DNA of 23,554 nt from a virus, in the IMG/VR virus record IMGVR_UViG_3300048032_000007, positions 1-23,554 of that record; one strand, 5' to 3'. The position numbers were made by a program, and so were the translations under genes. The notes under the pieces are model-generated. The model was not told the origin of the DNA, ran no database searches, and saw nothing but the letters and a program-made list of their open reading frames with translations. The first letter of the stretch is position 1. Each line of letters starts with the position of its first letter. Shown here one piece after another: positions 3,485-17,253 of this stretch.

Positions 3485-4735
3485 TTAGTATCCTGCTACC
3501 ACGTCTAAGATTTCGTGGTCCTCAATTTCGTAGTCGTAGTCGTACGCTACATTTGCCAGTTGGTCAATGTACGCCAAAGCGTCAATCAAGTCATCGTGCG
3601 TCAAAGGATCAGGGAACTGAAAGAGTTGATCCAAGAATCTACTGTTCCATTCACCTTTGTTTAATGTAATGTAGCCGTTCTCGAAACGACCTTGTAGTGC
3701 CCACATTACTCTGTCGGTCTTCTTTTTGTTACCGTGGGTAAGCTCTTCTACTCTAAAGAACATACCGTATCTCTTTTGCATGTCTAACAGAGGAGACATT
3801 ACAGCCTGTTTAGCAATACCTCTTTCGATTCCAACCGACACGGGACGGTAATCTCTAACGGCCTGAAATATCTTAGCTGCTGTTTCGTCAAGTGACCATC
3901 TACCGTATATGATATTGTCAACATACCAACCATGCTCATTGACCTTAACCACGGCGATGGCTGTGTCGTCAAGCTTGGAGTTCTTAGTTTTCTTTTTGTT
4001 GACTTCTTCAAAGCCTGCCAAGTCAACGGCAATGTAGTAGTCTCCTATTTCAGGTTCGTCTTCGCTAAAAGAGACCCAGTCCTCTTTAAACATTTCCGAC
4101 CCACGAGCTTCAAACGACGCCATAAATTCTTGACGGAACGCATAACTCGACATACTGCGTTTAGCAATATCAATTTCTGACGGGTCAAGTAAAGGATTAT
4201 CGTAAGATGTAAAATGCCAAGCTTTGTACGTAGGGTCATCATCTAGTTCCGCATACTTGTATAGTTCGTAAAAGTGGTTCCTTCCCATAGGTGTGCCTAT
4301 AAACATTGCACATCCCTTTTGGTCAGCCAAGGCAGGTCTCAAGATCTGCTCAAATACCTCTGGCTTCATGTCAGCGTATTCGTCCATGACTAGAAACTTG
4401 AGGCTGACACCTCGCATTGTTTCTGGTCTGTCGGCACCTTTGAGGCTGATGGTAGCACCGTTGACAAGCTTAATTTGCAGATTATTAATGTGACTACCAG
4501 CGATAACAGGGTGTCCCAGTTCAAGCAAGGTTTGCCACATGATGTCTCTGGCTTGTCCCTGAGTAGGTGCGACGTAAAATACATGGCCTCTGTCTGCCTG
4601 AAGTGCGTTAACTATTAATAACCATGCTGCTAACCTAGACTTGCCTGTACGTCGTCCAGCAGCTACTATTTTAAATCTTGTGTCGTCTGCCCAGACATCT
4701 TGTTGCCAAGGCAGTAGTTCTATATTAAGATCCAT
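3485..4735 (-). CDS. terL: Terminase large subunit (packaging ATPase/nuclease)
   Basis: 416 aa. It pumps DNA into the prohead and cuts it into genome lengths. Visible in order are: Walker A at residues 26-33 (AGRRTGKS); Walker B at about 114-119 (FLVMDE, Asp118/Glu119); a coupling motif near 145-151 (FIGTPMG); and the RNase H-like nuclease domain with a first catalytic acid at Asp238 (YIAVDLAG), a second candidate in VGIERG near residue 300, and a third in the HDDLIDALAY segment near 390. All key residues are present, so the enzyme looks intact. It overlaps the preceding small gene by 11 bases and is followed by the portal gene. Headful versus site-specific packaging cannot be told from this sequence. 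Confidence 0.95.
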   Translation of the reverse strand: MDLNIELLPWQQDVWADDTRFKIVAAGRRTGKSRLAAWLLIVNALQADRGHVFYVAPTQGQARDIMWQTLLELGHPVIAGSHINNLQIKLVNGATISLKGADRPETMRGVSLKFLVMDEYADMKPEVFEQILRPALADQKGCAMFIGTPMGRNHFYELYKYAELDDDPTYKAWHFTSYDNPLLDPSEIDIAKRSMSSYAFRQEFMASFEARGSEMFKEDWVSFSEDEPEIGDYYIAVDLAGFEEVNKKKTKNSKLDDTAIAVVKVNEHGWYVDNIIYGRWSLDETAAKIFQAVRDYRPVSVGIERGIAKQAVMSPLLDMQKRYGMFFRVEELTHGNKKKTDRVMWALQGRFENGYITLNKGEWNSRFLDQLFQFPDPLTHDDLIDALAYIDQLANVAYDYDYEIEDHEILDVVAGY

Positions 4736-5078: not shown

Positions 5079-5428
5079 TAGTATGTCCACATAACAGGTG
5101 TTGTACCACGGGTGTCAACGTGGATAAAGTCAGAAGCAACACCAATACCTGTAAATCCTAGAGCCAAAGCAGAATGTACAAGCTTAAGGCGATCAGCAGC
5201 GTTTGTTATTTTTATGTCCGCTGCGATCCCTTGGGCGTGTGTTCCGGGAACATCTTTTCTTGACTCTATTGGATGTAGTGTCGGGTGTCTATATCCGCTA
5301 GTAATCACAAAAGGAAATCCACAGTACGCCCTTAACTCGTCTAACTTCTCTAGGAACTCTTGTTCCATGTTGTTGGTTCCGGAGACCTGACAATCGAATT
5401 CTTCTCTAGTAAAATGCTTAAGACTCAT
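5078..5428 (-). CDS. M15-family peptidase endolysin
   Basis: 116 aa, a single-domain zinc peptidase of the Peptidase_M15_3/VanY-like type that cuts peptide bonds in peptidoglycan. Motifs: SGYR at residues 44-47; zinc ligands His64 and Asp71 in GTHAQGIAAD; and the third ligand His103 in FIHVDTR, with the GFTGIGV segment ahead of it. Spacing and length fit the family, and the active site looks complete. No signal peptide or membrane anchor is seen, so release would need a holin, and none is identifiable among the late genes here. It could instead act during entry if packaged. It overlaps the end of the upstream TerS-like gene by 11 bases, so the lysis gene sits between the two terminase genes. 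Confidence 0.88.
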   Translation of the reverse strand: MSLKHFTREEFDCQVSGTNNMEQEFLEKLDELRAYCGFPFVITSGYRHPTLHPIESRKDVPGTHAQGIAADIKITNAADRLKLVHSALALGFTGIGVASDFIHVDTRGTTPVMWTY

Positions 5429-5801
5429 CTACTACTTCTCCTTCGATTATCTCTGGTGTTGATACCTCTGCAGTACCTACACCACTAATGTTGATCTGTA
5501 TAGCGTTTCTACCATTGTCTTTTACTACGTCCTTCTCAAAGGCACCCACTGGTAGTATACGGTCCATCACAAGTTTCCAAGCAGCAGCCTGATTCTTATG
5601 GTCATGGTCCAAAGCAGCATCAAAAATAGTCTCTAGGACCTTACGAGACTTAGGACTAGCCAACATCCTAGCCTTGTACTCATTAATTATCGCTGCGTCA
5701 CCCTTTGGTCGGCCTACTACACCCTTGTTACCGGGCTTTACAGCGGCTACTTCGGACTTCCGGGGTCTGCCACGACCTCTTTTTTTAACTTCTGTGGTCA
5801 T
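5418..5801 (-). CDS. AT-hook protein, candidate terminase small subunit
   Basis: 127 aa and the first gene of the late minus-strand operon. The N-terminus has two AT-hook-like motifs, RGRGRPRKS (residues ~8-16) and VVGRPKGD (~28-35), which typically bind the minor groove of AT-rich DNA. The middle is helical (EYKARMLASPKSRKVLETI, then AAWKLVMDRILP) and the C-terminus is acidic (EIIEGEVVDES). A DNA-binding N-terminus, helical core and acidic tail, two genes upstream of TerL, fit a small terminase that recognises viral DNA. This is inference, as the sequence does not clearly match a known TerS family. A DNA-binding regulator or nucleoid-like protein is the alternative. A sigma70-type promoter lies directly upstream; the ribosome site (AAGGGA) is rather far from the ATG. 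Confidence 0.65.
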   Translation of the reverse strand: MTTEVKKRGRGRPRKSEVAAVKPGNKGVVGRPKGDAAIINEYKARMLASPKSRKVLETIFDAALDHDHKNQAAAWKLVMDRILPVGAFEKDVVKDNGRNAIQINISGVGTAEVSTPEIIEGEVVDES

Positions 5802-5822: not shown

Positions 5823-5858
5823 TGACTATAGTATAACATAAGTTAACACGAAAGTCAA
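5823..5858 (-). promoter_or_regulatory. Strong sigma70-type promoter for the late (structural) operon
   Basis: On the minus strand the -35 box TTGACT lies at 5858-5853 and the -10 box TATACT at 5835-5830, with an exact 17-base spacer. Each hexamer differs from consensus at one base. Transcription would start near 5823, about 20 bases before the ATG of the TerS-like gene. The surrounding AT-rich sequence favours melting. It is the only clear promoter I see for the minus-strand genes. Confidence 0.8.
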
Positions 5859-5912
5859 GCCATTTTTAGGTTAATTCCTGGGACTATTGAAACTTGAGTA
5901 AAAACAAGAGGT

Positions 5913-5960
5913 TATACTGCTTTTATTTTTACTTAATTTTTCTAATTTTACCTTATTTTG
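5913..5960. other. AT-rich tract, candidate DNA unwinding element
   Basis: Positions 5919-5960 contain only 7 G/C in 42 bases and consist mainly of T-runs separated by A (TTTTATTTTTACTTAA style). The tract lies next to the DnaA-box array, separated from it by a pyrimidine/GC-rich cluster at about 5998-6012. An easily melted tract beside phased DnaA boxes is the usual plan of bacterial origins. A TATACT hexamer at 5913-5918 could be a plus-strand -10, but the nearest good -35 (TTGAAA, 5887-5892) is 20 bases away, too far for a confident promoter. Confidence 0.5.
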
Positions 5961-6017
5961 TGCCTAAGTGGCTACCACAAGTATTCTTACGTTGCAACCC
6001 CCTCCCCCGGCCTAAAG

Positions 6018-6210
6018 TTATCCACAGGTTATACAAAGTTATCCACAGGTTTTACACAGGCTGTGGACAACTTGTGTACAACTTTAGCGCGCACTGTGGA
6101 TAAGTCTGTGGATAACTTTAGTTGCTGCCTAGGTTGTGGATAAAGTTATGCACAGGTTATCCACAGGTTTTCCACAGGGTCAACCTAAGTTATCCACAGG
6201 TTTATCCACA
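6018..6210. repeat. DnaA-box array, candidate phage replication origin
   Basis: Eight perfect 9-mers TTATCCACA occur in 193 bases: plus strand at 6018, 6039, 6157, 6190 and 6202; minus strand (as TGTGGATAA) at 6095, 6107 and 6135. Near-matches sit at 6146 (TTATGCACA), 6168 (TTTTCCACA), 6050 (TTTTACACA), 6029 (TTATACAAA), 6062 (minus, TTGTCCACA) and 6073 (minus, TTGTACACA). Starts are often 10-12 bases apart (6018/6029/6039/6050, 6062/6073, 6095/6107, 6146/6157/6168, 6190/6202), placing sites on one helix face. This is the consensus bound by bacterial DnaA. The array fills the non-coding region between divergent late and early genes and abuts an AT-rich tract, as an origin would. Alternatives are titration of host DnaA or DnaA-controlled transcription. 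Confidence 0.85.
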
Positions 6211-6464
6211 TGGTCCTCAGACGCCCTCAGAAGCCGCTCACGGGGTTTTAACCTTGGGGTATGCTAGAGCATCAACTAAAGTTTATTCGAGTTTTTGCAT
6301 ATTTGGGGTTGACAAGTGTGTGGACTTATGTTGAACCCTCAGGGCCTTTCATAACGTGTGCACGTGCGAGTAACATAAGACACCAAAAGCAGTCAAGAAA
6401 TAATTAATGTAAATATTCACACAAAATAAATGTTGCACTCAGGTCTCACTATGGCATTATGAAC
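6211..6464. other. Non-coding leader between origin array and first early gene
   Basis: No credible gene is present. Visible elements are: an isolated TTGACA at 6309-6314 without an acceptable -10 at 16-18 bases; a 9-base odd palindrome CCCTcAGGG at 6336-6344 flanked by TGAA/TTCA; the 8-base palindrome GCACGTGC at 6360-6367; and an AT-rich stretch around 6396-6432. A weak promoter-like pair TTGCAC (from about 6433) and CATTAT (16-base spacer) could give a start near 6465. The early promoter presumably lies in this region, but I cannot fix it. Confidence 0.4.
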
Positions 6465-6518: not shown

Positions 6519-6704
6519 ATGGAAAACGTAACCACATCAAAAATCCTAGGTCGGTCAGTAATCCTTCGCAAGCGTAAGATCCTGAGCAAGCCCTTCAGCT
6601 ATAACCAAGGCGAGTGCTACCACAATCTGACCGGTGGGCTTTGGTCGCTCTACATTGAGCACAAGAAGGGACGACCAGTGAACGTATCCATCGACGACCG
6701 TTAA
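6519..6704 (+). CDS. Small basic early protein, unknown
   Basis: 61 aa. The ATG at 6519 is chosen over the in-frame ATG at 6459 because a perfect AGGAGG sits at 6504-6509, 9 bases upstream. The protein is basic, with an ILRKRKIL cluster near the N-terminus, and ends NVSIDDR. It contains aromatic residues (YNQGECYHNL, WSLYIEH) that suggest a small beta-rich fold. No membrane segment and only one Cys are present. It is the first gene after the origin region on the plus strand and is followed by a hairpin, so it may be made in larger amounts than later genes. The position is typical of host-takeover or regulatory proteins; the function is unknown. Confidence 0.7.
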   Translation: MENVTTSKILGRSVILRKRKILSKPFSYNQGECYHNLTGGLWSLYIEHKKGRPVNVSIDDR

Positions 6705-6772: not shown

Positions 6773-7420
6773 ATGGTCAAACTTTCGAAGGCCTCAAAGA
6801 TGCCGGGTCGCTCGTGGTCACTGCAAGCGCTGGACACTTGTCCCGGTTCAAAGAAACGTGACGGGTCATTAGTGGACGCTTGTTCGGGATGCTATGCCAC
6901 TACGGGCAACTACCGATTCAAGAACGTTAAAGCCCCTAGAGAGCACAATCGGGAAGACTGGAAGCGGTCCGAATGGGTCGACGACATGGTGGCAGAATTA
7001 GACAATGATCGGTACTTTCGATGGTTCGACAGTGGTGACGTATACGACGTACGCCTTGCGTTTAAGATCCTTGAGGTAATGAAGCGAACGCCATGGTGCA
7101 ATCATTGGCTACCGACACGCATGCATAAGTTTTCAAAGTTTGGTTCAGTGTTGGCAGAAATGTCAGCATTGCCGAACGTAGTAGTTCGCCTATCGTCCGA
7201 CAGCATTACGGGGGACACCGTAAAAGGCCCTCAGACGTCCACCATAGCGACGTTGGATAATGTCCCTAGTGGTGCCCTAGTTTGTGAAGCTTATCAGCGA
7301 GGGGGAAAATGCGGGCCTTGTCGGGCATGCTGGTCAAAGGATGTCGCACTTGTGTGTTACATTGGGCACGGTAAGAGCATGGAAAAGAATCAACGGGATA
7401 TAATAGCGAGGGTGGCGTGA
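6773..7420 (+). CDS. gp88-like Cys-rich phage protein
   Basis: 215 aa from the ATG at 6773, preceded by AAGGAG at 6761-6766. The N-terminus has KMPGRSWSLQALDTCPGSK with Cys23, then DACSGCYAT with Cys37 and Cys40. A conserved-looking FRWFDSGDVYD segment follows near residues 82-92, then WLPTRMHKF and VVVRLSSDS, and a C-terminal cluster CGPCRACW. This layout matches what I recall of the phage 'gene product 88' family, which resembles the Gp37/Gp68 proteins. The seven or more spaced Cys could bind zinc or an iron-sulfur cluster, and the repeated strand/helix pattern suggests a TIM-barrel-like enzyme; both are inference. The role is unknown. The next gene starts on its stop codon (TGATG). Confidence 0.7.
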   Translation: MVKLSKASKMPGRSWSLQALDTCPGSKKRDGSLVDACSGCYATTGNYRFKNVKAPREHNREDWKRSEWVDDMVAELDNDRYFRWFDSGDVYDVRLAFKILEVMKRTPWCNHWLPTRMHKFSKFGSVLAEMSALPNVVVRLSSDSITGDTVKGPQTSTIATLDNVPSGALVCEAYQRGGKCGPCRACWSKDVALVCYIGHGKSMEKNQRDIIARVA

Positions 7421-7527: not shown

Positions 7528-7715
7528 AAACATTCTACACGTGCCAGATCACCGGTAAGTATTTCGAGGACACCTTGATTGCTAAGACAGCGGTAAGGGT
7601 GTCAGATTACCCTAGCGAACCATCATGGGGCATATACAAGACGTACGACGGTGCCGCTATACTATGCGATTGTGACGTGGACCACGCAAAAGGAGAGTTA
7701 AACGATGATAGTTGA
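7524..7715 (+). CDS. Small soluble early protein, unknown
   Basis: 63 aa, starting on the ATGA that ends the first mini-membrane gene, with AAGGAAC upstream as a ribosome site. The N-terminus (MKTFYTCQITGKYFED) has one Cys, and CDCDVDHAKGE near the C-terminus has two more plus a His. This could be a small metal site, but Cys spacing C7 to C48/C50 is not a classic zinc ribbon. The middle, PSEPSWGIYKTYDGAAIL, looks beta-rich. The opening resembles small 'YTCQ.TGK' zinc-ribbon-type phage proteins that lost a CxxC, which is speculative. The end overlaps the next gene by 11 bases. Confidence 0.65.
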   Translation: MKTFYTCQITGKYFEDTLIAKTAVRVSDYPSEPSWGIYKTYDGAAILCDCDVDHAKGELNDDS

Positions 7716-8034
7716 AATGCTAGACGATAGGACATCCATTGAGGCCCTAGGACTGCTACCGCACTTCTTCGAACGATCACTGTACATTGAAGGGCAATCC
7801 ATACAGTCAGTCGCTGACAAGATGGACGACCTATATCATTATGGCGGCTTTGTGTACCCCTTTGAGGGTACTGTAGACGACAAAGGTACTTATATATCGT
7901 CCAGTGATGAAGACGATCCTCTTGAGCCTCTGGCACGTATTGATAAGCTTGGGTTTACCCTTTGGGTTTATCCTTATGCAATCGTAGGGCTTACCGATAA
8001 CAAAGGTAATCAAAAGGTAGCGAGGTTTGACTGA
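7705..8034 (+). CDS. Small acidic early protein, unknown
   Basis: 109 aa, preceded by an AAGGAGAG ribosome site within the end of the previous gene. It is acidic, with helical N-terminal half (SIEALGLLPHFFERSLY, then SVADKMDDLYHYGGF), a polar SSSDEDDPLEPLARI segment, and a beta-like C-terminus (GFTLWVYPYAIVGLT). No Cys, no membrane span and no known motif. Such acidic small proteins in phage early regions often bind host proteins or mimic DNA, but nothing specific shows that here. The stop overlaps the next ATG as TGATG. Confidence 0.7.
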   Translation: MIVEMLDDRTSIEALGLLPHFFERSLYIEGQSIQSVADKMDDLYHYGGFVYPFEGTVDDKGTYISSSDEDDPLEPLARIDKLGFTLWVYPYAIVGLTDNKGNQKVARFD

Positions 8035-9570: not shown

Positions 9571-9948
9571 ATGACAGCAGCAACAATCGAAGGCGTAGTT
9601 AATTTCAGTAACCTAACCCAGCATGACGTATTCAATGGGCAGGACACCGGTCAGTACTCTTTGACCATTACGATGACTGAAGATGACGCCTCGGCGTTGT
9701 CCGCAATGGGGGTCAAGATCAAAGACTACCAAGGCGCTAAACAACGTAAGTTTAAATCTAAGTACGACGTAAAAAGCTTTGACGAAGACGGTAACCCTTA
9801 CGGTGGTGAGATTCCTTACAATTCTAAGGTACGTCTCAAGTACAAGCTTGGGCCAGCACATCCAGTACACGGTGTGTCAACCTATCTCGAAGCAGTGAAA
9901 GTCCTTGAGGAAGCTGAGATGGCTGTGGGCGATGCCGCAGACTTCTAA
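9571..9948 (+). CDS. Single-stranded DNA-binding protein (T7 gp2.5-like)
   Basis: 125 aa. It probably coats single-stranded DNA during replication and recombination. The sequence is beta-rich with basic and aromatic residues in the middle (GAKQRKFKSKYDVKSF, then VRLKYKLGPAHPV) and an acidic C-terminus ending in Phe (EEAEMAVGDAADF). In T7 gp2.5 an acidic tail with a terminal Phe contacts the polymerase and helicase, so the same ending here supports the assignment. It is shorter than T7 gp2.5 (232 aa), fitting the short SSB-like proteins of marine podoviruses. It is the first gene after a strong promoter, expected for a protein needed in quantity, and overlaps the primase-helicase start by 17 bases. 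Confidence 0.8.
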   Translation: MTAATIEGVVNFSNLTQHDVFNGQDTGQYSLTITMTEDDASALSAMGVKIKDYQGAKQRKFKSKYDVKSFDEDGNPYGGEIPYNSKVRLKYKLGPAHPVHGVSTYLEAVKVLEEAEMAVGDAADF

Positions 9949-11551
9949 GTTTGTACGTCACGAGAGTTGTCCGGAGTGTGGTTCTTCGGACGCTCTCGCT
10001 ATTTACGACAACGGAGGCCAGCACTGTTTTGCTTCCGGTTGTGACTACCATGTATTTGGAGACGGTGAAACACCAATGACGACTCAAGAACTACCAAAAG
10101 CTAAACCCCTGAACATGGGTGGTGTAGTAGCGGCAATACCTCAGCGTAGACTCTCGCAGGAAACCTGTAGCCGCTTTGGTGTTACCGTTGAGTACTCCAG
10201 CACAGGGGAGATTCAAAAGCACTACTATCCTTACTACAACGGCGAGTCAGGGGAAGTGTGTGCAGCTAAGGTGCGTGACGTAAAAACCAAAGGATTCCAC
10301 GCAACCGGAGACATGTCCGGTGCTGGTTTCTTTGGACAGCAGCAGTGTAGCGGTAATAAGTACATCACAATCACCGAAGGAGAACTCGACGCACTTAGTG
10401 TGTACGAGATGTTTAACAAACAGTACGACGTGGTTTCCCTACGGTCAGGTGCTAGTAATGCCGCCAAGGAAATTAAAGAACAGCTAGAGTGGCTTGAGTC
10501 ATACGAAAACATAGTTATTTGTTTCGACAATGACAAAGCAGGAGATGCGGCTTTGGAGCAAGTTAAGGACCTCTTTAGTCCTAACAAGCTAAGAATCTGT
10601 AAACTTCCTGTGAAGGACGCCAGTGACATGCTCATGGCTAATAGGGTTAAGGACTTTACGCAAGCATGGTGGAATGCGAAAGTTTACCGACCTGATGGCA
10701 TTGTGGCAGGTACTGAAACATGGGACACTCTGGTAGAGAAAAGACAGGTGAAGTCCATCCCGTACCCTTGGGAGGGCCTCAATCATATAACTAGGGGACA
10801 TAGACCTTATGAGTTGGTCACGATCACAAGCGGCAGTGGTATGGGAAAGTCCCAATTTATCAGAGAAATTGAGTACGATCTACTACGCCGATGCGAAGGC
10901 AATATTGGAGTCTTGGCGCTTGAGGAAGATCTGGCCCGAACAAGCCTTGGTATCATGTCGGTGGCGGCAAACAGGCCCCTACACTTGGAAGAGGACACGC
11001 CTGTGGACCAACTTCGACCTTTTTGGGAGGCCACACTGGGCACAGGACGTTACTACTTATTCGACCATTGGGGGTCTACTTCAGCAGACAACTTGCTCGC
11101 CCGTGTTCGCTACATGGCAAAAGCGCTTGACTGCAGGTACGTCGTACTGGACCACTTGTCCATCGTCGTGTCTTCCCAAGAGTCCGGAGACGAGCGTAAG
11201 GCCATTGACGAGATCATGACCAAGTTACGTACGCTTGTGGCGGAGACAGGCATTGGTCTGTTCCTCGTGTCACACCTTCGTCGATCCCAAGGTAAGGCAC
11301 ACGAGGATGGTGCTCAGATATCTTTGGGTGAACTACGTGGGTCACAAGCGATTGCACAACTGTCCGACATTGTGATTGGTATGGAGCGTGACCAGCAGAA
11401 CGCTAACGAAGACATCAGGAACACGACTACTGTTCGAGTCCTGAAGAATCGTTACACCGGTGAAACTGGACCGGCGTGTTACTTACAGTACGACAGAAGT
11501 ACCGGAAGAATGACAGAAGTAGCTAACCCTGAAGTAGGAGCAGACTTTTGA
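9932..11551 (+). CDS. Primase-helicase (T7 gp4-like, fused)
   Basis: 539 aa from the ATG at 9932; an ATG nine codons upstream is open but falls deeper in the SSB gene. The N-terminal zinc site has Cys13, Cys16, Cys32 and Cys37. A TOPRIM-type primase domain has TEGELDA (Glu149-Asp153) and FDNDKAG (Asp199, Asp201). A RecA-type helicase domain carries Walker A SGSGMGKS at 300-307, a Walker B-like YVVLDHLS near 410, a HLRRSQ segment and a C-terminal IAQLSDIVIGMERDQ. The length matches T7 gp4 (566 aa), and all motifs look intact, so one protein should lay primers and unwind DNA. It ends on a TGA that overlaps the TTG start of the polymerase gene. Confidence 0.95.
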   Translation: MPQTSKFVRHESCPECGSSDALAIYDNGGQHCFASGCDYHVFGDGETPMTTQELPKAKPLNMGGVVAAIPQRRLSQETCSRFGVTVEYSSTGEIQKHYYPYYNGESGEVCAAKVRDVKTKGFHATGDMSGAGFFGQQQCSGNKYITITEGELDALSVYEMFNKQYDVVSLRSGASNAAKEIKEQLEWLESYENIVICFDNDKAGDAALEQVKDLFSPNKLRICKLPVKDASDMLMANRVKDFTQAWWNAKVYRPDGIVAGTETWDTLVEKRQVKSIPYPWEGLNHITRGHRPYELVTITSGSGMGKSQFIREIEYDLLRRCEGNIGVLALEEDLARTSLGIMSVAANRPLHLEEDTPVDQLRPFWEATLGTGRYYLFDHWGSTSADNLLARVRYMAKALDCRYVVLDHLSIVVSSQESGDERKAIDEIMTKLRTLVAETGIGLFLVSHLRRSQGKAHEDGAQISLGELRGSQAIAQLSDIVIGMERDQQNANEDIRNTTTVRVLKNRYTGETGPACYLQYDRSTGRMTEVANPEVGADF

Positions 11552-13182
11552 TCTACCTTGATCTTGAGGCCAACGGTTTAACTCCTGACACCATTTGGTG
11601 CGTTGTAACACGGGAGAACGGTGTTTCACAGGTACATACCAACCGTAGTACCCTCTGTGAGGCTCTGGCTGGCTCTGTGAGCGTTTGTGGACACAACCTG
11701 ATAGGTTATGACCTCCCAGTGCTAAAGCGTCTCTGGGGGCTTTCTGTGGCTCCTGAGCGCATAGTGGACACACTGGTGTTGTCACGTCTGTTTGACCCAA
11801 GCAGACAGGGTGGACACTCGTTGAGAGCTTGGGGTGAAACCTTGGGCTTCCCAAAGGGTGACCATGACGACTGGTCGTGTTTGTCTCCCGCTATGATTGA
11901 CTACTGCATACAGGACGTAGCAGTTACAGAAGCAGTACATCAGCAGCTTGTCAAGGACATGCAAGATTTTGACCCTAAGTGTATCGAATTGGAACACAAG
12001 GTTCAGTTTGCAGTCCAACAACAAGAGCGCAATGGTTGGGTCTTAGATCAGCAATTGGCTAATGAGTTATGTGCAACATTCAAGGAAGGCATGAATGCAA
12101 TTGAAGCCGAACTACAAGAGATGTTCCCGCCCATTGTCGAAGAAAGGATTTCTGAAAAGACAGGGAAACGACTTAAGGACAAAGTTACAGTTTTCAATGT
12201 TGGGTCCAGACAACAAGTTGCAGAAAGACTTGCAACTAAGGGTGCGAAGTGGAACGAGAAGACGCCAAGCGGAAAGCCTGTTGTCGATGAAAAGACGCTT
12301 AAGGAGAACAACCACGTCCCTGAGGCAGGAAAAGTTTTGGAGTACCTTACTCTTCAAAAGCGATATGCGCAAGTACATTCATGGTTAGAAGCTGTTCAGG
12401 AGGACGGCAGAGTACATGGTCGTGTCATCAGTAACGGAGCAGTCACTGGACGTATGACACATCAGAGTCCCAATATGGCCCAAGTCCCAGCAAGCCACAG
12501 TCCTTACGGACACGAGTGTCGCTCCTGCTGGACTGTACCTGAAGGGAAGAAGCTAGTAGGTTTCGACGCTAGTGGCCTTGAGCTACGAATGTTGGCACAT
12601 TACATGGACGACAAGGAGTTTACCAATGTCCTTCTCACAGAAGACATTCATACAAGAAACCAAATGGCTGCTGGCCTTGAAACAAGACCTCAAGCAAAGA
12701 CTTTCATCTACGCTTTCCTCTACGGAGCAGGAGATGCAAAAATTGGAAGTATCGTTGGAGGAAGCGCAAGAGACGGCGCAGATCTTAAGCAACGATTTCT
12801 ACGAAATACACCTGCTCTTGAAAGTCTACGAGAACGGGTTACTAGAGCATCTCAGCGAGGCTATCTCAGGGGACTTGATGGTCGAAGATTACGAGTTAGA
12901 TCTGAACATGCTGCATTGAATACTCTGCTCCAAGCAGCAGGTGCAATCGTAATGAAAAAAGCACTGGTGATCTTGGACGACTACGCACAGCAGTGGAAGC
13001 TTAACTACAAATTCATAGGTAACATTCATGACGAAGTACAATCGGAGGTGGCTGCAGACCAAGCAGAGAAGTATGGCTGGCTCGCAGTGGAGTGCCTCAA
13101 GGCGGCAGGCGTGGAGTATAACCTTAGATGCCCCCTTGACGGAGAATACAAAGTCGGCACAACATGGGCGGAGACGCACTGA
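11548..13182 (+). CDS. DNA polymerase, family A with 3'-5' exonuclease
   Basis: 544 aa from a TTG start overlapping the helicase stop, with AGGAG at 11536-11540. The start is fixed by the exonuclease motif right at the N-terminus, as in T7: Asp5/Glu7 in YLDLEANG. Exo II is GHNLIGYD (Asp55) and Exo III YCIQDV (Tyr119, Asp123). Polymerase motifs: TGRMTHQSPNMAQVP; motif A GFDASGLELR (Asp340); motif B AKTFIYAFLYGAG (Lys384, Tyr388); motif C IHDEVQ (His494-Glu496). Tyr388 sits at the site equivalent to E. coli Phe762 and T7 Tyr526. At 544 aa versus 704 it is shorter than T7 polymerase, consistent with a reduced thumb or no thioredoxin-binding loop. Motifs are complete, so it should be active. Confidence 0.95.
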   Translation: MIYLDLEANGLTPDTIWCVVTRENGVSQVHTNRSTLCEALAGSVSVCGHNLIGYDLPVLKRLWGLSVAPERIVDTLVLSRLFDPSRQGGHSLRAWGETLGFPKGDHDDWSCLSPAMIDYCIQDVAVTEAVHQQLVKDMQDFDPKCIELEHKVQFAVQQQERNGWVLDQQLANELCATFKEGMNAIEAELQEMFPPIVEERISEKTGKRLKDKVTVFNVGSRQQVAERLATKGAKWNEKTPSGKPVVDEKTLKENNHVPEAGKVLEYLTLQKRYAQVHSWLEAVQEDGRVHGRVISNGAVTGRMTHQSPNMAQVPASHSPYGHECRSCWTVPEGKKLVGFDASGLELRMLAHYMDDKEFTNVLLTEDIHTRNQMAAGLETRPQAKTFIYAFLYGAGDAKIGSIVGGSARDGADLKQRFLRNTPALESLRERVTRASQRGYLRGLDGRRLRVRSEHAALNTLLQAAGAIVMKKALVILDDYAQQWKLNYKFIGNIHDEVQSEVAADQAEKYGWLAVECLKAAGVEYNLRCPLDGEYKVGTTWAETH

Positions 13183-15099: not shown

Positions 15100-15382
15100 T
15101 GAAGCGACTCCTGAAGAGTGGGACACAGTTACTGCACTAAACAACTTGTCCATCAGGAAACCAAAGAAGGTAGACCCTGTGGAGCAACCTGACCACTACA
15201 ACAAAGGAGCAATCGAAGCCATCGAAGCAATCAAAGCGTCCATGCCTGAACATGAGTTCAATGGTTATCTCAAGGGTAACGCACTGAAGTACCTCTGGCG
15301 CTATGACTACAAAGGTAAACCAATCGAAGATCTACGGAAGTGTCGCTGGTACATCGAACGACTAATTAAGGAACTAAATTAA
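15089..15382 (+). CDS. DUF3310 protein (T7 gp1.7-type nucleotide kinase domain)
   Basis: 97 aa, preceded by a purine-rich AGAGGAAGAAG stretch. Hallmarks of DUF3310 are PDHYNKGAIEAIEAI (residues ~36-50), FNGYLKGNALKYLWRY and GKPIEDLRKCRWYI. In T7 this domain is part of gp1.7, an unusual nucleotide kinase acting on dTMP and dGMP. Here the N-terminal third is a short acidic extension. It sits directly before the RNR gene, with stop and start overlapping (TAATG), consistent with a shared role in supplying nucleotides. Activity of the short form alone is unproven. Confidence 0.88.
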   Translation: MSIDEATPEEWDTVTALNNLSIRKPKKVDPVEQPDHYNKGAIEAIEAIKASMPEHEFNGYLKGNALKYLWRYDYKGKPIEDLRKCRWYIERLIKELN

Positions 15383-17253
15383 TGGACGCATATCAACAGT
15401 ACATACACAAGTCACGCTACGCTCGTTACCTACCAGAGGAGCAACGTCGTGAGACTTGGGAAGAAACAGTAAATAGGTACCTAGATTATTGGGTAGACCG
15501 TGTAGAACTAAACGAGTTCGATCAATCAGAAATATTCCACACTATTCATGAGCTGGACGTAATGCCTTCCATGCGGGCACTTATGACTGCTGGAGAAGCA
15601 CTGGACCGTGACAATGTAGCTGGGTTTAACTGCTCCTACATGCCTATTGACCACCCTAAAGCATTTGACGAGATGATGTACGTCCTTATGTGTGGCACTG
15701 GAGTGGGCTTTAGTGTAGAGCGTCAGTACGTAACAAAATTACCAGAAGTAGCAGAGGAATTCCATGATACCGATACCGTTATACATGTCGCCGATAGTAA
15801 AATTGGATGGGCTAAAGCTTACCGGGAACTTGTTAGCTTGTTGTATTCAGGCCAACTTCCAAAATGGGACGTGTCTGGAGTACGATCTGCAGGGGCAACC
15901 CTTAAGACCTTCGGAGGTAGAGCATCTGGTCCAGAGCCTCTTGTCGATCTGTTCAACTTCACAGTCAGCGTCTTTCGGGAGGCTGCTGGACGTAAACTTA
16001 GTTCCATCGAATGTCATGATCTCTGCTGTAAGATTGCACAGATCGTCGTCGTCGGCGGTGTACGCAGGTCCGCTCTCATCAGTCTGTCTAACCTCACTGA
16101 CGATAGACTCCGACGATGCAAGTCAGGCCAGTGGTGGCAAGATAACCCTCAACGGGGACTAGCGAACAACAGCGCATGTTATACAGAGAAGCCAGACTTT
16201 GAGGCGTTTTTAAATGAGTGGAAAAGTTTATACGAGTCCCGCTCCGGAGAACGAGGAATGTTCTCTAGAGTCGCAAGTCAAAAGCAAGCTGCAAAGAATG
16301 AGCGACGAGATGCTACCTATGATTTTGGAACTAATCCATGCTCAGAGATCATCCTCAGGCCCTACCAGTTCTGTAATCTATCGGAAGTTGTTGTCAGGGC
16401 AGGAGATACGCTGTCGGACCTCAAACGAAAAGTTCGTGTTGCAGCTATCCTTGGGTCTCTTCAGGCTACGCTAACCGACTTCCGCTACCTTCGTAAGGTG
16501 TGGCAGAAGAATACAGAAGAAGAAGCACTACTAGGTGTATCACTAACAGGCATCATGGATCACGCTGTGTTGTCAGGGAGGGAAGACCGTGAAAAACTTA
16601 AGGAGTGGCTCATTGCTCTCAAAGAGGAAGCGATTAGTACTAATGCGGAATGGTCTAACAAGCTTGGCATTAATCTGTCTACTGCCATTACTGCTGTTAA
16701 ACCTTCCGGTACTGTTAGTCAGTTGGTTGATTCTGCATCTGGCATCCACCCTAGATATGCAGATCAGTACATTAGACGAGTTAGAGCAGATGCAAGAGAC
16801 CCGCTCTGCCAAGTCCTAGAAGCCGCTGGAGTGCCCGTAGAGGACGACGTAATGTCACCCACTACCAAGGTATTCTCCTTCCCCATAAAGTCGCCTGAGG
16901 GGGCTGTGGTGGCCTCTGAGATGGGTGCTATGGAGCAACTTGAGCTTTGGGAGATCTATCAGGACTTCTGGTGTGAACATAAGCCGTCAATGACGTGTTA
17001 CTACCGTGACGACGAGTTCCTTGAGGTGGGTCAGTGGTTGTACAACAAGTTCGACAAGATCAGTGGTGTGTCGTTCTTACCGTACTCTGAACATACGTAC
17101 CAACAGGCTCCTTATGAACCTATTGATCTAGAGACGTATGAGAAGTTGAAGGAGGAGTTTCCTGAGATCATCGACTGGAACATCTCTGAGAACTCTGACA
17201 TGACTGAAGGGTCGCAACAGTTGGCTTGTACAGGTAATAACTGCGAGTTGTAA
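15382..17253 (+). CDS. nrdJ: Class II (B12-dependent) ribonucleotide reductase, monomeric RTPR type
   Basis: 623 aa. It converts ribonucleotides to deoxyribonucleotides using adenosylcobalamin, so needs no oxygen or separate radical subunit. Key residues: Cys84 (GFNCSY); Cys320 and Glu322 in NPCSE; Cys331 in QFCNLSE, 11 residues after Cys320; and a C-terminal CTGNNC pair, Cys616 and Cys621. The Cys320-Cys331 and Cys616-Cys621 spacings equal those of Lactobacillus RTPR (408/419 and 731/736), which identifies the class. The protein is about 115 aa shorter than that enzyme, mainly towards the N-terminus. A PSGTVSQLVDSASGIHPRY segment is also typical. The last gene before the operon terminator, it depends on host or environmental cobalamin. 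Confidence 0.95.
   Translation: MDAYQQYIHKSRYARYLPEEQRRETWEETVNRYLDYWVDRVELNEFDQSEIFHTIHELDVMPSMRALMTAGEALDRDNVAGFNCSYMPIDHPKAFDEMMYVLMCGTGVGFSVERQYVTKLPEVAEEFHDTDTVIHVADSKIGWAKAYRELVSLLYSGQLPKWDVSGVRSAGATLKTFGGRASGPEPLVDLFNFTVSVFREAAGRKLSSIECHDLCCKIAQIVVVGGVRRSALISLSNLTDDRLRRCKSGQWWQDNPQRGLANNSACYTEKPDFEAFLNEWKSLYESRSGERGMFSRVASQKQAAKNERRDATYDFGTNPCSEIILRPYQFCNLSEVVVRAGDTLSDLKRKVRVAAILGSLQATLTDFRYLRKVWQKNTEEEALLGVSLTGIMDHAVLSGREDREKLKEWLIALKEEAISTNAEWSNKLGINLSTAITAVKPSGTVSQLVDSASGIHPRYADQYIRRVRADARDPLCQVLEAAGVPVEDDVMSPTTKVFSFPIKSPEGAVVASEMGAMEQLELWEIYQDFWCEHKPSMTCYYRDDEFLEVGQWLYNKFDKISGVSFLPYSEHTYQQAPYEPIDLETYEKLKEEFPEIIDWNISENSDMTEGSQQLACTGNNCEL

Follow-up and report, generated by a model that had tools for sequence, protein, structure and literature searches.

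A recurrent array of consensus DnaA boxes at the gene-divergence point of an uncultured phage family with a T7-type replisome

Why would a phage that encodes its own replisome carry a dense array of DnaA boxes? To our knowledge, phages with a T7-type replisome of their own are thought not to need DnaA, the host initiator. The question is raised by a 23,554-base viral record (IMGVR_UViG_3300048032_000007), analysed here over its whole length and referred to as the window. A recount confirmed the eight exact and about six near-matching boxes, in two orientations and largely spaced by 10–12 bases, that an earlier note had described: positions 6018–6210 hold 8 exact TTATCCACA boxes, 3 one-mismatch and 3 two-mismatch sites, making 14 in 193 bp. 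Start-to-start distances are 10–12 bp or multiples of this, both orientations are present, and across regions the spacing of boxes peaks at 11, 22 and 33 bp. The record contains no exact box outside this array. First-order Markov simulation (300 runs) gave an expectation of 0.18 exact boxes in the whole record and a maximum of 2, and 14 boxes with at most one mismatch were observed against 5.6 ± 2.4 in 100 shuffles (maximum 12), ruling out chance or low complexity as the source of the array. Rfam and tRNA searches of the window returned no match. The array most likely represents binding sites at which host DnaA is recruited; host DnaA is very probably the partner because the boxes match the consensus exactly and because they were gained convergently, as described below.

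The array marks the point where the leftward and rightward gene arms of the phage genome diverge (Table 1). The leftward arm runs from the 127-aa AT-hook, small-terminase-like (TerS-like) protein through an M15 endolysin and the terminase large subunit (TerL) to the portal, and the rightward arm also has small ORFs, a Cas4-type exonuclease and endonuclease I. Both replication enzymes named in the earlier note, the T7-type primase-helicase and the family A polymerase, were found in the window. The replication arm further contains a B12-dependent (class II) ribonucleotide reductase (15382–17253). Among the Autographiviridae criteria, T7-type primase-helicase, polymerase A and endonuclease I are present; no single-subunit RNA polymerase (PF00940) was found in 14 family records, full-length relatives among them, in a search that detected it in the positive control CRP-143; the window itself is a fragment. 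To the left, the DUE-like stretch ends 57 bp from the first box and adjoins the segment 5797–5876, also among the four least stable of the record. In 38 of 48 arrays, a C-rich run is located no more than 40 bp to their left. One relative of about 35 kb is circular, as shown by a 127-base overlap of its contig ends, and it has no exact box outside its array.

Table 1. Coordinates of the array and neighbouring features in the window.
Feature	Position	Strand	Remark
Exact TTATCCACA boxes (starts)	6018+, 6039+, 6095-, 6107-, 6135-, 6157+, 6190+, 6202+		
One-mismatch boxes	6062-, 6146+, 6168+		
Two-mismatch sites	6029 TTATACAAA, 6050 TTTTACACA, 6073 TGTGTACAA		complete the phase; found by eye
DUE-like stretch	5882..5961	.	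least stable 80 bp of the whole record (nearest-neighbour energies)
C-rich block CCCCCTCCCCCGGCC	5998..6012	+	immediately left of first box
Sigma70-like promoter, TTGACT-17-TATACT	5830..5858	-	leftward arm; read from sequence, predicted
Conserved element GGGTTGACAAGTGTGTGGACTTATGTTGAACCC	6306..6340	+	between array and rightward genes
127-aa AT-hook protein, probably small-terminase-like	5418..5801	-	first gene of leftward arm
TerL	3485..4735	-	
61-aa ORF	6519..6704	+	first gene of rightward arm
GP88-family protein (PF17338)	6773..7420	+	early cassette
109-aa ORF	7705..8034	+	early cassette
gp2.5-like ssDNA-binding protein	9571..9948	+	
T7-type DNA primase-helicase	9905..11551	+	
Family A DNA polymerase	11548..13182	+	

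Enrichment of boxes at the syntenic place in relatives, a check that the earlier note had named, was found. Of 80 polymerase relatives of the window, 11 share at least 88% polymerase identity with it and clearly extend as far as the spot, marked by the TerS-like gene; all 11 carry an array there (L009, L011, L014, L020, L027, L030, L033, L034, L037, L039 and L040), that of L034 with two exact boxes only. L013, cut within its array, and L025, which may end before the spot, lie outside this count; L010 has an array at the far end of its contig. The number, order and orientation of boxes vary among close relatives and the box sequence is constant; relative to the window, box positions are 85% conserved and spacers 66%, which points to box-specific constraint. 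In samples drawn by TerL at about 90–100%, 74% and 57% identity, with boxes not used for drawing, the kilobase upstream of the TerS-like gene contained 0.7–1.6 exact boxes per kb against 0.006–0.03 elsewhere, and across all box-blind samples the region contained 0.7–3.0 against 0–0.03 elsewhere.

As a fixed feature of the family the enrichment did not hold, many members being without the array: at least three exact boxes were present in 5/47, 11/43 and 8/52 records of the three TerL samples, respectively. Mapped onto a 137-row TerL tree, presence of the array requires at least 18 gains or losses, 11 of them forced by well supported branches, a count that recombination between TerL and the array spot could inflate. 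The array is thus no hallmark of this large uncultured family but recurs in it by repeated, convergent gain at a single spot. One mosaic phage with an array (L117/L331, IMGVR 3300048004_000053) has a TerL 97% and a polymerase 51% identical to those of the window; an array can thus move together with the packaging genes and independently of the replication arm. No cultured phage had a TerL match covering 80% of the window's TerL, and the 127-aa gene had no match in the phage collection. Some of the closest cultured relatives by polymerase, pelagiphages HTVC103P and HTVC115P and roseophage CRP-143, had no array in the parts read. Manatee Spring phage MW202484 was set aside, as its match comprises the GP88 region only, with no exact box in the part read. 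Host assignment from MAG contigs was likewise rejected, the Bacteroidota, Verrucomicrobia and betaproteobacterial bins probably containing misbinned viral contigs.

The most surprising result is the exchange of the array against sites of another kind. In relatives with 93–99% identical TerL and 84–86% identical polymerase, the boxes are replaced by 1–9 sigma54-type sites, TGGCAYR-N4-TTGCA/T. The surroundings are retained, namely the AT-rich DNA on the left, the C-rich block and the element before the rightward genes; GGGTTGACAAGTGTGTGGACTTATGTTGAACCC is common to DnaA-type and sigma54-type relatives, and the sigma70-like promoter of the leftward arm persists in relatives without the array. Across all regions, TGGCA-N6-TTGC occurs 223 times and other gaps 0–2 times each. 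The logo, YTGGCAYR-N4-TTGCW, fits the consensus YTGGCACG-N4-TTGCW with its fixed GG/GC spacing, which we take to be the textbook sigma54 −24/−12 promoter including its flanks, and these sites are predicted sigma54 promoters. In the polymerase-based sample, 26 of 26 face the early genes. Several relatives (L371, L376 and L363, also L366, L367, L370 and L372) pack 7–9 sigma54-type promoter sequences of both orientations into about 300 bp; these arrays lie about 200–450 bp upstream of the TerS-like gene, the place of the DnaA boxes in the window. When the polymerase-based and close TerL samples were pooled (some contigs are in both), no record combined at least three boxes with at least two sigma54 sites, 14 had boxes only, 34 sigma54 sites only and 20 neither; two more distant phages have both. 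Other clades carry other high-copy short repeats at the same spot, namely ACAGCCTGCA (L395), GCGCACACCTGCG (L444) and, among L477, L470 and L522, CATGACTAC, ATGGTCCACA and CGAGCGGGCCGA. By ORF clustering, the 61-aa and 109-aa ORF families were each present in 10/13 array phages versus 0/21 sigma54-type phages, and GP88 in 11/13 versus 2/21. The array is exchanged jointly with the early cassette, an association that kinship may explain.

Use of such an array as an origin or trap had been called unusual for this phage group, but the array itself is not unusual among T7-like phages. The cultured Autographiviridae A7 of Shigella and P483 of E. coli (both Berlinvirus), Enterobacter phiEap-1 (Eapunavirus) and Klebsiella ZK1 (Molineuxvirinae) have DnaA-box arrays, as do Klebsiella S16a, Vibrio BD1, Streptomyces LilMartin and Lactococcus LW81, with 4–7 exact boxes each in the stretches read. 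The window's array is matched by 89 phage records at E 0.1, weak matches included, and that of phiEap-1 by 34 at E 0.01; a search of plasmids gave four weak matches only. Like the window, the T7/SP6-like phages A7, P483, phiEap-1 and ZK1 combine 4–6 exact boxes, a phase of about 11–22 bp and long non-coding stretches; unlike it, they have boxes in a single orientation, and phiEap-1 encodes an RNA polymerase. Because phiEap-1 and BD1 have both an annotated RNA polymerase and an array, the array is not simply an RNA polymerase substitute. Three of these arrays lie near the left ends of their records (A7, L573, 22–147; phiEap-1, L579, 71–174; ZK1, L576, 19–198), with exact boxes in one orientation. 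T7 resembles the window in its row of short CCTAAAG repeats near the early promoters at its left end, a motif that precedes some boxes in the window (6011–6017), A7 and P483, and differs in that its first 1500 bases contain no box at up to one mismatch. Among the IMG/VR matches listed, L243 (12862–13093), L297 (656–902) and L239 (5348–5578) have 9–13 exact boxes within about 250 bp, and none of them matched any protein of the window. In Microvirus mar31 (L002, 3160–3283), the 11-mer TTTTCCACAGG, which is a variant of the DnaA box, is repeated in tandem in non-coding DNA. Searches of the open-access literature pairing DnaA with phages yielded lambda, Plasmaviridae and one Pseudomonas phage origin prediction, and nothing on arrays in lytic T7-like phages.

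What could the array do? The best single reading, which we put at rather less than an even chance, is that it works as a phage replication origin. Three observations favour this: the instability of the adjoining DNA, where the array is placed, and the lack of the opener that T7-type replication uses. Host DnaA would load onto the phased boxes at the divergence point and help to melt the very unstable AT-rich DNA 60–140 bp to their left, allowing helicase loading, and the phage T7-type primase-helicase and family A polymerase would take over the bubble. As in a bacterial oriC, a cluster of dense, phased consensus boxes above chance expectation lies beside a GC block and the record's least stable 80 bp, a neighbouring candidate unwinding element of low helical stability. 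In 42 of 47 arrays the unstable stretch is on the left side, and a region in the contig's top 0.1% of instability accompanied 22/34 array loci versus 4/29 sigma54-type loci. Array phages have the stretch in that top 0.1% more often (odds ratio 7, P = 1.7 × 10−4 before kinship correction; a trend only, with significance lost, in independent tree pairs). A GC-skew minimum, as at oriC, coincides with the array, seen cumulatively in the complete circular relative; a sigma54-type phage that lacks boxes has its minimum at this place too, and the direction of the genes accounts for it just as well.

Canonical origin geometry is only partly present. A DUE-proximal box pointing to the DUE was not seen as a rule, the leftmost box being on the plus strand, facing away, in 38 of 48 arrays, and in the window too this box is averted from the unstable stretch; E. 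coli R1 has the reverse orientation. No DnaA-trio (BUS) was found 3′ of any of 388 boxes, although E. coli is likewise weak for BUS and a missing trio is therefore not exclusive (PMC8287927). The window further differs from oriC in that most of its boxes are consensus and that it belongs to a lytic phage with its own replisome. Lambda and Plasmaviridae (L2) also have DnaA boxes in phage DNA at or near the origin (PMC3985674, PMC12662186), but these number one or two versus 8–14, lie beside a phage initiator or serve a host replisome, and belong to temperate phages. Against use as an origin stand the relatives with 93–99% identical TerL and no array, the cultured T7-like phages that have arrays with an RNA polymerase of their own, and the row in Microvirus mar31, as microviruses replicate by rolling circle.

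The exchange at the spot accommodates a broader reading, which we regard as possible but doubtful: a modular docking site at which, across the family, rows of consensus sites for one host protein have time and again given way to rows for another, serving as interchangeable origin openers or sponges. If so, these phages would choose which host regulator to plug into, whether DnaA, sigma54-RNA polymerase or perhaps others.

Sequence does not separate an origin from a trap, in which perfect high-affinity boxes, amplified with the phage, would soak up host DnaA and stop host replication rounds or alter DnaA-controlled genes. Whereas origins mix strong and weak DnaA sites, the main boxes here are mostly consensus. 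The canonical signals for unwinding are absent, and phages that replicate by independent modes also have arrays. The replacement of the array by rows of another host factor's consensus sites would also follow a sponge logic. E. coli datA, a cluster of strong boxes outside oriC, titrates DnaA through two boxes of consensus sequence and four that have one misfit (PMC5835720), but it is a locus of the chromosome, and its hydrolysis of DnaA-ATP depends on an IHF site. We consider a trap somewhat unlikely: the fixed position and neighbouring stability minimum are not needed for it, yet both are observed; each infecting genome brings only about 11–14 sites; the phage endonuclease I and Cas4-type exonuclease may destroy host DNA anyway; and the uniform direction of the sigma54 sites towards the early genes is more promoter-like than sponge-like.

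The same sigma54 sites, with their strict gap and logo at the same spot, fit a role in transcription, with DnaA switching divergent early and late promoters and sigma54 promoters doing the same job in relatives. The array lies between the leftward sigma70-like promoter and the conserved rightward element and is exchanged together with the early cassette, and DnaA boxes at lambda pO, with DnaA-stimulated transcription at the lambda origin, provide a precedent (PMC3985674). This role is nonetheless unlikely, as some members have both kinds of site and the array has far more sites than usual; DnaA-regulated promoters usually have far fewer. Terminase binding to the repeats as a cosB- or pac-like packaging site is very improbable: the array adjoins the TerS-like and TerL genes, and some T7-like phages have arrays near record ends, but 91–98% identical TerS-like proteins accompany completely different arrays, the repeat is the DnaA consensus, and contig ends do not pile up at the array, which also rules out a natural genome end there.

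In phages with a T7-type replisome, perfect boxes that are conserved as an array and have been gained again and again imply that lytic infection makes use of host DnaA or captures it. The exchange of the array against sigma54 sites at one spot constitutes a natural experiment on what that spot does, and because similar arrays occur in cultured phages of E. coli, Shigella and Enterobacter, the way in which such phages engage the host initiator is accessible to bench experiments. Together, the repeated gain, loss and replacement at this spot suggest that it serves the phage to borrow, or to capture, a regulator of its host.
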